Positions 24,547-32,527 of a stretch of DNA of 64,000 bases are shown in pieces (positions within the stretch are counted from its first letter, which is position 1; the number at the start of each line of letters is the position of its first letter). Made by a program: the position numbers and the translations under genes. A model generated the notes under the pieces. It saw only the letters and a program-made list of their open reading frames with translations. It made no database searches and was not told where the DNA came from. The stretch is from an uncultured Mycoplasmataceae bacterium (GTDB lineage Bacteria; Bacillota_I; Bacilli_A; Mycoplasmatales; Mycoplasmoidaceae): contig CANEON010000002.1 of the NCBI GenBank assembly GCA_947429165.1, forward strand, positions 1 through 64,000, in the 5' to 3' direction.

Positions 24547-25446
24547 TTATAAATTAATAAATGCCAAGAAGAACTTAAAACTTTGGTTAGGATCAACCAA
24601 CCCCATTTTAATGTTTGTATCTAACTCAAATAGTTTATCAAGAATAAAATTAATTTTTCCTAATGAAATATCTTTTACATATGCCATTTGTCTAGCTTGG
24701 AATGGTGTAATTTGTAAGTTAGAATTTATTTGAGTAAATGGTAAATTTTGATTTAACGCTTCTTTGTAAAGTTTTACTTTAAAAATTTGAGAAGAAATAA
24801 TTTGAATTATTTCAACAGGTTGGTGCTTCAAACTAATTAGTTTGTTATATAGATTTAACGATTCTTTTAATTGATTTCTAAGAATATATGTGTTTAGTAA
24901 GAAAATGTTCCCTTCAAAATTATCTAACATAATTTCTTCTATGTCTTTCTCAGTTACTTTTCTATCACCACAATATATTTTTATCTTTTCAATTTCACTC
25001 TTAACAAAAAGATAGTTATTAGCTAAATGATCAACAAATTTTTCAAAAGTTTTCTGAGAATCAAAGTTAATGTTTTCTTCTAAACAAATCTTTTTGATTT
25101 CATCAAATTTATTAAAATCAGTAATTTTGTTTTTTTTAATTAATTTAATTTTTAACTTCTTAACTATTGGATTAAACTTATCGAGTTTATCATTTTTAAC
25201 TAAACAAAAAACTTCTGAATCATTTTTATTTAAAGTATCAATAAGTTTAGAAGCCTCTTCAGATTTGTCTAATAAAAAATCAGCGTCTGTAATAATAATG
25301 TTTTTTGGTTGTCCAAATAATGAAGATTGGTTTATTTCGTCAAAAATAGATGAAAAGTCTCCATCAAAAACAATTTTTTTTGAGTCTTTTAATCCTAATA
25401 CTTCATCATTGATTTGGTCTAAATCGTTACCAAAATAAATTACCAT
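24547..25446 (-). CDS. holA: DNA polymerase III subunit delta
   Basis: A 299-residue clamp-loader delta subunit. Short start MVIYFGND, SLFGQPKNIIITD, and the C-terminal region with LKHQPVEIIQIISSQ and PFQARQMAY follow the HolA pattern (e..pl.il..l..q.r.ly). It opens the beta clamp as part of the clamp-loader complex. The comEC-holA order is conserved in Firmicutes and holds here: the comEC stop overlaps this ATG. Confidence 0.88.
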   Translation of the reverse strand: MVIYFGNDLDQINDEVLGLKDSKKIVFDGDFSSIFDEINQSSLFGQPKNIIITDADFLLDKSEEASKLIDTLNKNDSEVFCLVKNDKLDKFNPIVKKLKIKLIKKNKITDFNKFDEIKKICLEENINFDSQKTFEKFVDHLANNYLFVKSEIEKIKIYCGDRKVTEKDIEEIMLDNFEGNIFLLNTYILRNQLKESLNLYNKLISLKHQPVEIIQIISSQIFKVKLYKEALNQNLPFTQINSNLQITPFQARQMAYVKDISLGKINFILDKLFELDTNIKMGLVDPNQSFKFFLAFINL

Positions 25447-26540
25447 TGAAAGTTAGTTTTTTTATATGTAATCATTATAATGACAAAAAGCAAAATGTAG
25501 TATGAACAACTAAGATATAAATTTGATATATTTAAACAGATTTTAATATTAATAATATTAAACCCTTCTATTAACGCAAAAACGATATATGTTAATACAT
25601 AATGAATTGGTGCTAAAAAAGTTACAAATCAAAAAAAGAAAAAATATACAAAAATAAAGCAGAAAAAGTAACTAAATATAAACGAATTAATGAATGCTAT
25701 CAATGAAATTTCTTTATTGATAGATAAAACGAACGGTAGACTTATGATTATCGCAAAAACATTTATTAATATTTTTTCTAAAACCTTATTCTTCATTTCT
25801 AAAGTAGATATAAAGATAACACCAAAAGTGCATATATAACTCAATTGAAAAGATAGAGAAAAACATAACGAAGGGATTGTGAATAGTAAAATCAAACCAG
25901 AAACGCTAAATACATCGAATGGATTTTTTGATTTCGTGAATTTTGTAATTATTAATGACAAGAAAACCCTTAATATGCTAACAGCGAAATTTAGTAAATA
26001 AGAATAGAAAAATAATATAAAAAAATTAGAAATAAATTGTAATTTTTCGTGATTTTTAAAAATAATATTAATTATTTTCTTAATAAACAGAAAGTGAAAT
26101 CCACTTATCACAATCATGTAAACGATTGATAAGTCAATCATCTTATTGTATAAAACATATCCGTCATCAATTTTTACATTCAATATCATAAGCTTAATAA
26201 AATTAGAAGTCGTTTGATCATATTTGGAGTCAAGAAAATTACACATTAGATCTCTTATGTTAAATTTCATTTTTGTGTTTATTAAATTGCATAAAAATGT
26301 TAAAAAATTAAAGTTTTTTATAGCAAAAAACATAATTGTCGGAACAAAAGAAATAACGAAATAAAAGATTAATCTTTTAAAAGAAATATTTGTAAAAGAC
26401 TTATACAATACAACCATTAAAAGCAAGGATAAACATCTAACATCTTTTAAAAACACTAAAAGAAAAATAACGCACAGCAAAAGTAAGCACAATAAGTGCC
26501 TATTCTTGCCTCTAGAAATAAAAATATTATTTTTCTTCAT
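25440..26540 (-). CDS. comEC: ComEC/Rec2-like competence membrane protein, core only
   Basis: A 366-residue protein made almost entirely of hydrophobic helices. It contains ISGFHFLF, which corresponds to the SGLH motif of the ComEC competence domain, and ILRVFLS downstream. Full ComEC in Bacillus is about 780 residues with an N-terminal OB domain and a C-terminal metallo-beta-lactamase domain; neither is present, so only the channel part remains. It would move single-stranded DNA across the membrane, if functional. Position before holA supports the call. TGA Trp at residue 304. Confidence 0.72.
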
Positions 26541-30319: not shown

Positions 30320-32152
30320 TTAATTATTAATAAAGAAAATGAAATTATTTTGCGAAATCAATTCTTTAATTTTCTTTTTTACATACATATTTTCTCGTTT
30401 AGTTAAATATTTAAAACTATTGTTAAAGCAGATGATCTTTTCATTTTGAAAACACACAAATATAAAATTCAATATTTGTTGTTCACGAAGCGAATAAGTT
30501 TTTTTATTTAAAGAGATATTGAAAAATCTTAAAAGTTCACTGGCTAGCATGCTGTTTCTCGAAACGTTTTCTTTAATATATTCAACTGATATTTTTGTAT
30601 CAGGATTAATCTTTATAAAATTATTTTTAAAAAATAATTTATTTTGATTTTTGAATCCATTAATTGAATTAAAGTTGCTCAATGAAATAATATCTTCTTT
30701 TATTATTGAATTTCTTTTAATGGTGGATGAGTCCTTTTCAGTACAAAATGTAATAGAGTTAATTTCGTTTACTGATTTAATAAATGAGTCTTTGATAATG
30801 TTTGATAAATTAGAGAAAGATCAATATACATCTGACATTTTCTTGTATTCTTTAACTTTGTAAGGAAAATTACATATATTGTTTGTTGAATTAGTAAACA
30901 TTCCTAATAAAGAAACTAAAAACGTTAGTAGCCCAATATTCAATTGATCATTTATTAAATAAATGGCTCCTGCTGCAACCATTAATAAATAAATTAAATT
31001 GGTAAAAAACGTTTCAAAAAAACTTAGATTATTATCAAACGAAGCTTTTTTTGAATATATCTTTTCAAATTGCTGAAAATTAATTTTAATTTTTTCAATA
31101 TTAAATTTAAGCATTTCTGAATTTTCTTCTTTTGAAATTAAATCAATCAATTCCCTTGAAATATTGTTGTTAAAGTTGCTATTCTTAATTGCATGTTCAA
31201 GATTTTTTGTTTTGAAATTAAGATTAACAACCGCTACAAAAATACTAAAAATAACAGCTATAAGGTAAAATAACAAAAACATCGGTTTAATTAAAGCAAA
31301 AATTATTAAAGAAATCAAAATCATAAATATATCTGTAATCATCATTGAAATTTCGACAGTTAAGAAATTGCAGATGCTTACAATAGATGAATCGATTAAA
31401 TATACATATGATGGTTCGATTTTATTTATAAAAGTGTTATTTTTATATTTGATTGAATTAATGAATTTAAATACTAAATATTTAAAATTCTGATTAAATC
31501 TAATCAACGAATAATGTTTAAGTACATAATTTAGTAAACAGTTTAACAAGGTGATTAAACAAAATATAAAAACTAATGAGATTAAATTAGATGTTGATTT
31601 TGAATAAATAGAAAAATTAAGTGTTCAATTAAAGACATTTGCAAACAATGTAGATAACCCAATAATTGCTAAGTGTAAAAACATACATATGATTAAAAAC
31701 TTAAAGTCTATTGACTGTAAGTCAATTTTTTGCTTTGTGTATTTAATGTTCGTTTTAGATTTTGAAATTTGAAAAACAATGTTAGAAAAGTCTTTTTTAA
31801 GTTCATTGTACTTTAATTCATATTTGCCAGAATCAGAGTCAAACATTACTATGTGTGTTTTAGTTTTAAAAATAATTACATAGTGCATAAGTTCGTTTTT
31901 ACGAATTAATAATCCATAATAGCAGTTGTTCTTTAAGCTGCAAAATTCAGCTCATTCACACTCATATGATTCAATATATAAACCAAACTTTTGACCTAAA
32001 TTTTCAAAATCATAAATTGATAATCCATTTCCATCAAGATTTGCTTCGTTTAAAATTTTTTCTTTATTTGATCATTTGTAATAATGGTTAACGAAACTAT
32101 TTATTACACATACACCACATTCATTAATTGAGTTTTGTTTTGTTACTTTCAT
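30320..32152 (-). CDS. C39-peptidase ABC exporter-like protein with degenerate ATPase domain
   Basis: A 610-residue protein. Residues 1-130 are a C39 peptidase: Gln6 and Cys12 in QNSINECG, His90 in LMHYVIIF and Asp105 in FDSDSG give an apparently intact catalytic set. Membrane helices of an ABC exporter follow (about 150-420). The last 130 residues correspond to an ABC ATPase but no Walker A (GxxGxGKS) is present. The signature/Walker B area reads SLREQQILNFIFVCF...IICFNNSF instead of LSGGQ...LLLDEA. PCAT exporters cut double-glycine leaders and export peptides; this one probably cannot use ATP by itself. No leader peptide gene is apparent next to it. Confidence 0.72.
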
Positions 32153-32257: not shown

Positions 32258-32527
32258 ATGAAAAAAATCCCCGCTCAGCAATTATCAAAAATTAAAAATA
32301 TTTTTTACTTAACATATACATCATTTATAGTATTGTTCGCAATTCTTGGAATTTGTGACCAAATATTTGGTTTCTTATTAATGTCTTCTAATCCGGTTGG
32401 TATAGGAACGTTGTCTGTGTTTACATTTTTAGCAATATTAATGTTATGCATATTTATTTTCTACAAAATCGTAATGTTAATAAAGAATAAGGTTAACATT
32501 CCTGAAAAAGCAGAAGAAAAGAAATAA
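32258..32527 (+). CDS. small membrane protein, two TM helices
   Basis: An 89-residue protein with hydrophobic helices at about 16-42 and 48-75 and a charged C-terminus (KAEEKK). It starts divergently from the C39 gene, 105 bp away, with TATATAATAAAAGT directly before ATG. It has its own terminator. The function is unknown. It could be a partner of the divergent C39 protein, by position only. Confidence 0.65.
   Translation: MKKIPAQQLSKIKNIFYLTYTSFIVLFAILGICDQIFGFLLMSSNPVGIGTLSVFTFLAILMLCIFIFYKIVMLIKNKVNIPEKAEEKK

Follow-up and report, generated by a model that had tools for sequence, protein, structure and literature searches.

PCATs, in which a C39 peptidase domain is joined to the TMD and the ATPase domain (NBD) of an ABC exporter, are taken to couple the cutting and the export of their cargo through ATP. 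ATP binding inhibits the protease of PCAT1, which does its cutting while the transporter faces inward (PMC6959990), and cutting therefore needs no bound nucleotide; the leaders of PCAT cargo follow the consensus L(-12)xxxE(-8)L(-7)xxxxG(-2)G(-1) (PMC6959990). For protein 0401 of syn3A, a homologue of the protein described below, import of lipoyl-peptides was proposed for the reason that double-glycine peptides had not been identified in syn3A and were not apparent in other mycoplasmas, for which Dirix 2004 is cited (PMC6609329).

The window, by which we mean the whole 64,000-nucleotide stretch of DNA analyzed, from an uncultured Mycoplasmataceae bacterium, encodes a PCAT with intact C39 residues and an ABC-exporter fold (Table 1). 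Its frame is open throughout when translated with code 4, in which TGA is read as Trp. A Pfam search of the protein recovered Peptidase_C39 at residues 2-133 (E 2.9e-18) and, weakly and under the cut-off, ABC_membrane at residues 153-422 (E 1.1e-4), with no match to ABC_tran up to E = 10. The Gln/Cys/His/Asp set of the peptidase, which an earlier note on this DNA had regarded as intact, is all there, and none of the four residues Q6, C12, H90 and D105 varies among 27 same-genus copies; all are kept in 39 of 39 copies from the lineages with a motorless PCAT, a few of these being partial with the NBD unseen. Residue 15 (window 32108-32110), three positions after the catalytic Cys, is likewise a Cys in all 39 of these copies, as against 22 of 50 others. 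An AF2 model built from 27 same-genus sequences (pLDDT 82) places the TMD helices at residues 150-184, 188-235, 253-288, 290-341, 345-400 and 406-447. The modelled C39 domain superimposes on the ComA peptidase domain at 1.9 A over ~131 residues (Z 19), residues 142-610 match ComA with Z 21.8, and the full-length model matches PCAT1 (4ry2) with 590 residues aligned. The top curated family is the NF045998 Mbov_0121 PCAT family, with 189.4 bits over residues 5-473 only, which falls short of the curated cut-off of 500 bits.

Table 1. Coordinates of the PCAT gene and its domains in the window, and of two related genes elsewhere in the same genome (G000)
Feature	Position	Strand or contig	Remarks
Motorless PCAT (C39 + ABC exporter TMD + degenerate NBD)	30320..32152	-	610 aa, TGA=W
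C39 peptidase domain, residues 1-135	31748..32152	-	PF03412; Q6, C12, H90, D105 present
ABC exporter TMD, residues 140-450	30803..31735	-	six long helices in AF2 model
Degenerate NBD ("pseudo-NBD"), residues 455-610	30323..30790	-	motif alignment, fold, dN/dS
Accessory protein of the same genome	G000:C2:104844-105204		one-pass protein, in front of ybeY
Double-glycine-type peptide of the same genome	G000:C5:9945-10190	contig 5	NF045747 (MPN313) match

The earlier note had further claimed that the ATPase domain lacks Walker A and that its signature and Walker B are unrecognisable, and the alignment of the motorless copies against 47 intact mollicute PCAT NBDs shows all of these to be gone, together with the catalytic Glu and the H-loop. 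In the window's PCAT the GxxGxGK[ST] columns of Walker A are filled by unrelated residues or gaps, SLREQ stands in place of the signature SxGQ, and Walker B, KIILLDE in the intact form, reads KIICFNNS, with neither the D nor the catalytic E; the H-loop His and all sequence beyond it are absent, and the NBD-like region measures ~155 aa, ~45 aa shorter than the ~200 aa of intact relatives. The motorless copies as a group are without Walker A, the SxGQ signature, the catalytic Glu past Walker B and the H-loop His, and a search of the alignment for a Walker A was negative in the window's genus. An NBD hidden by a wrong genetic code or a frameshift was considered and rejected: the frame is without a Walker A, and intact relatives align through the region. 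Structure prediction, which the earlier note had recommended for the C-terminal region, indicates that despite the dead motifs the last 155 residues are still NBD-like in their modelled fold, given that the AF2 model matches PCAT1 along its full length and ComA over residues 142-610.

Among public genomes, the named relatives are MAGs of uncultured Mycoplasmataceae/Mycoplasmatota; one comes from goat reticulum, and the isolate names of the others suggest rumen and insect-gut bins. Designating the window's genus g1, its sister genus g10 and a third genus, with a separate loss, g5, we found the motorless PCAT in 34 of 36 g1 genomes, in a single copy each, but as two pieces in genome G015. The frames are open across the genus at 25-57% protein identity to the window's copy, and the frameshifts in relatives that the earlier note would have taken as a sign of decay are absent from the 30 same-genus copies read. 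All five g10 copies with a readable NBD are motorless, and in a FastTree phylogeny of the C39 and TMD segments they form a single clade with those of g1 (support 0.95). Three g5 genomes make up a separate dead-NBD group, whose exact placement in the tree is uncertain; since this group stands apart from g1 and g10 and the remaining g5 genomes are intact, the motor was lost at least twice. The NBD is intact in the copies read from g2, g3, g4, g6, g7 and g11 and from the families f5, f7 and f8. Several apparent further losses were rejected, namely locus L162 (g8, genome G151), where a true frameshift or an error of sequencing breaks the frame ahead of an intact NBD, and the f7 copies of G276, G293, G172 and G286, which either have a broken frame or are complete and keep their Walker A. 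The picture of a PCAT that keeps its protease and has lost ATP binding, put forward in the earlier note for a single gene, is thus supported, as an ancient, clade-wide state.

Between close motorless pairs dN/dS amounts to 0.02-0.16 in C39, 0.04-0.14 in the TMD and 0.08-0.30 in the pseudo-NBD, with dS near saturation in some of the pairs. Judged from these sequence comparisons, the C39 domain, the TMD and the NBD-shaped remnant are under purifying selection, while all motifs for ATP binding and hydrolysis are gone. Conservation of the NBD exceeds that of the TMD in intact relatives (31% vs 21%) but falls below it in the motorless genus (25% vs 30%), as would be expected if constraint had been lifted from the motor only. 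Relative to C39, the TMD is conserved to the same degree in motorless copies as in intact relatives, which would appear to exceed the need of a mere membrane anchor and counts against reading the protein as a leader peptidase.

The PCAT gene has been relocated in the window's genus and adjoins valS in the window. Its divergent neighbor (32258-32527) is a small two-helix membrane protein without a family; the earlier note described this neighborhood correctly, but the protein, considered as a partner of the PCAT, is not a conserved one because its only other carrier is the nearest relative (L065). The comEC gene (window 25440-26540) is no more than a few kb away from the PCAT in g1, g10, g11 and the g5 loss loci (L122, L131, L133, L137, L147, L150, L155, L161 and L163). 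In most other lineages the PCAT is followed, often with an overlap of a few bases, by the gene for an accessory protein of ~120 residues, which has a single TM helix at its N-terminus and an outside part rich in beta structure; in many of them ybeY and dgkA come next. This accessory still adjoins the dead PCAT in g10 and g5, and many g1 genomes keep it in front of ybeY, apart from the PCAT. Some accessory proteins weakly match the NCBIfam MAG1140 family, and a model (pLDDT 91) consists of the TM helix and a beta barrel. Against AcrA, MexA and EmrA structures it gave Z 6.2-7.3, tied with unrelated barrels; hence an HlyD-type identity was not adopted, the likeness not being decisive.

The earlier note had stated that no cargo peptide gene is nearby, which is true within the window; genome-wide, however, a double-glycine-type gene is present on contig 5, and the search for double-glycine leaders that the note had suggested yielded this one peptide in the window's genome and relatives across the order. 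Its gene sits between ribosomal protein L32-like and sigma-70-like genes (names assigned by eye), and its product consists of the leader MTKLTLNKKKSINGG followed by a mature part that opens with AGVMAAWIAIMGVAMLGNIIASTITS (first residues AGVMAAW). The NCBI MPN313 model finds this one peptide in the genome (E 9e-7) and has matches in 41 of 95 family genomes and none of 14 control genomes, with Gly-Gly near residue 15 in 28 of the 30 matches read. The peptide matches NF045747 over residues 1-64 (E 1.5e-8) with 34.9 bits, under the curated cut-off of 100 bits; it is a homologous but distant relative of MPN313, a non-member by the cut-off. A wider peptide model detects the family in 33 of 36 genomes of the genus, 6 of 6 of g10 and most other genera of the family; in f7 and f5 its scores are weaker, and the ORFs read there are short peptides with a Gly-Gly leader. 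The Gly counts of this wider model are biased by its Gly-Gly seed sequences; the MPN313 model is independent of those seeds and its result unbiased. A match of this genome's peptide to "Bindosome" (E 0.02) leads to archaeal pilus literature and was set aside.

The leader consensus, 15 residues with Leu at -12, Ile/Thr at -4 and Gly-Gly at -2/-1, is identical in motorless and intact lineages. In the window's genome L4, G14 and G15 of the leader correspond to Leu -12 and Gly -2/-1 of the PCAT consensus, and the consensus Leu at -7 is replaced by Lys, a residue found there in 40 of 45 peptides from motorless lineages and 26 of 42 from intact ones. The mature part opens with a hydrophobic stretch, alike in both groups; a rise in cargo hydrophobicity following the loss of the motor was considered and dropped, there being no difference between the two (p = 0.52). 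Directly after the PCAT and the accessory, the three dead-NBD g5 loci carry two small peptides with leaders such as MKQLNNNIKQIKAGG, and one of the two kinds weakly matches the MPN313 family. Peptide and PCAT genes are unlinked in g1, and they are accordingly paired on the grounds of their co-occurrence, the motif in the leader and the operon seen in g5. Second peptides also occur elsewhere: in L276 (G113, g6) a second GG-leader-like peptide, MKKLSESEKKQIVGG followed by AGRRRISPFSS, lies beside the first, and L278, L282 and L296-L299, all from intact-PCAT genomes, have two different GG-leader peptides in tandem. Two-peptide bacteriocins likewise come as tandem peptides.

A further genus, g9, bears on the relation between leader and protease. 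Three of its draft genomes gave no C39 domain, and in two of these (G256:C99 = L308; G263:C29 = L309) an MPN313-type peptide occurs without a leader. Its frame opens directly on the mature sequence, with Met-Trp-Trp-Asn, and is preceded by a good Shine-Dalgarno and by no in-frame start codon. Leader and protease thus seem to have been lost together in g9, with the mature peptide kept in genomes without a PCAT, and this joint loss links the leader to the protease, though the case is one event in draft genomes that are 77-78% complete. The case further suggests that the peptide can do without ATP-driven export.

We lean towards the view that the window's protein is a putative ATP-independent, membrane-bound leader peptidase for the conserved hydrophobic peptide, rather than a pump. 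The C39 domain, at the cytosolic face, would bind the 15-residue leader and cut after Gly-Gly, freeing the mature peptide. The first ~20-25 residues of the latter are predicted to form a hydrophobic helix, which may insert itself into the membrane or slide out of the TMD cavity with no ATP-driven stroke. The pseudo-NBDs would probably be a scaffold only, holding the dimer and docking the protease. Because ATP binding inhibits the protease of PCAT1 (PMC6959990), a PCAT that has lost its NBD motifs would have a protease that is always on. The cleavage, the membrane insertion of the peptide and the scaffold role of the pseudo-NBD are steps that we infer. A bolder version, on which we would place somewhat less than even weight, casts the protein as a motor-free insertase-like protease that cleaves the hydrophobic peptide, passes or inserts it without an ATPase, and has arisen at least twice in mycoplasmas.

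Foremost among the alternatives is that the peptide is still translocated without ATP, through a TMD that serves either as a passive conduit or as a carrier coupled to protons, the direction being set by cleavage. The retained fold and relative conservation of the TMD speak for this, as does the persistence of an accessory placed like an exporter partner. LmrA without its NBD has reportedly been described as a secondary carrier, which would point the same way. The TMD of PCAT1 has been described as a conduit that has no specific site for cargo (PMC6959990). The gating motor is absent, however, and the survival of a leaderless peptide in g9, where no C39 was found, suggests that the route is dispensable; translocation of this kind therefore strikes us as unlikely. 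Further down the scale comes a partnership with another ATPase, either as a heterodimer with an ABC half-transporter or through a soluble NBD acting in trans. The earlier note had offered an additional ATPase subunit as the other option beside a membrane protease and had asked for a paralog with an intact ATPase. The only other ABC exporters of the genome, an adjacent pair with intact NBDs (C1:340469-343811), speak for such a partnership, but this pair looks self-sufficient. In the 90% complete draft G034 the only ABC exporter is the PCAT itself, and the drafts G202, G226 and G275 (66-86% complete) gave no match for an ABC exporter TMD. Nor does a free PCAT-type NBD stand out in the window's genome, where the best NBD scores 71 bits; the NBDs of family PCATs score 108-258 bits and those of the distant f7 PCATs 72-90. 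The covalently attached NBD remnant would, moreover, be an obstruction. With no candidate in the genomes searched, the membrane protease is favored over the extra subunit, which we hold to be improbable.

The protein might, instead of cleaving leaders, act as an importer or a transamidase; such a role, the uptake of lipoyl-peptides and their transfer, was proposed for its syn3A homologue 0401 because no double-glycine peptide was known there (PMC6609329), and this counts in its favor. As double-glycine-type peptides occur in the same genomes as the motorless PCAT, the reason for that proposal is removed, and the lack of an ATPase would make import even more difficult, which makes this role very improbable. 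We give even less credence to slow decay, in which the gene is losing function and will vanish: the pseudo-NBD does evolve faster than C39 and the TMD, but the open frames across the genus, dN/dS well under 1 in all three domains and two independent origins contradict it.

Evolution has removed the motor in one genus and its sister, and again in a third lineage, and has kept the cutter, the membrane part, the partner and the peptide; cutting and export are therefore separable by comparing relatives. The double-glycine-type peptides of many mollicutes provide a direct candidate substrate in several cultured species, and also a more ordinary candidate substrate for the 0401 family, the syn3A lineage being represented by a few weak f5 matches only. 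The peptide of the window's genome shares its Gly-Gly leader with the MPN313 family (NF045747) and differs in lying below the 100-bit cut-off. From NF045998 Mbov_0121, the mollicute PCATs that are its best family match and have the same accessory in other lineages, the motorless protein is set apart by having no match over the dead NBD, whereas the members read from other genera have an intact Walker A. It resembles PCAT1 of Clostridium thermocellum and ComA in the order of C39, exporter TMD and a domain in the position of the NBD, in its catalytic residues and fold, and in the GG-type cargo of its genome. Unlike these, its NBD is without the motifs for ATP binding and hydrolysis and ~45 aa shorter, and position -7 of its genome's leader is Lys, against Leu in the substrates of PCAT1. 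In the isolated C39 domain of the LahT150 type (PMC6363468) the protease is likewise handled apart from the ATPase; LahT150, however, is a laboratory construct, whereas here the whole membrane protein is natural and the motor alone is dead.
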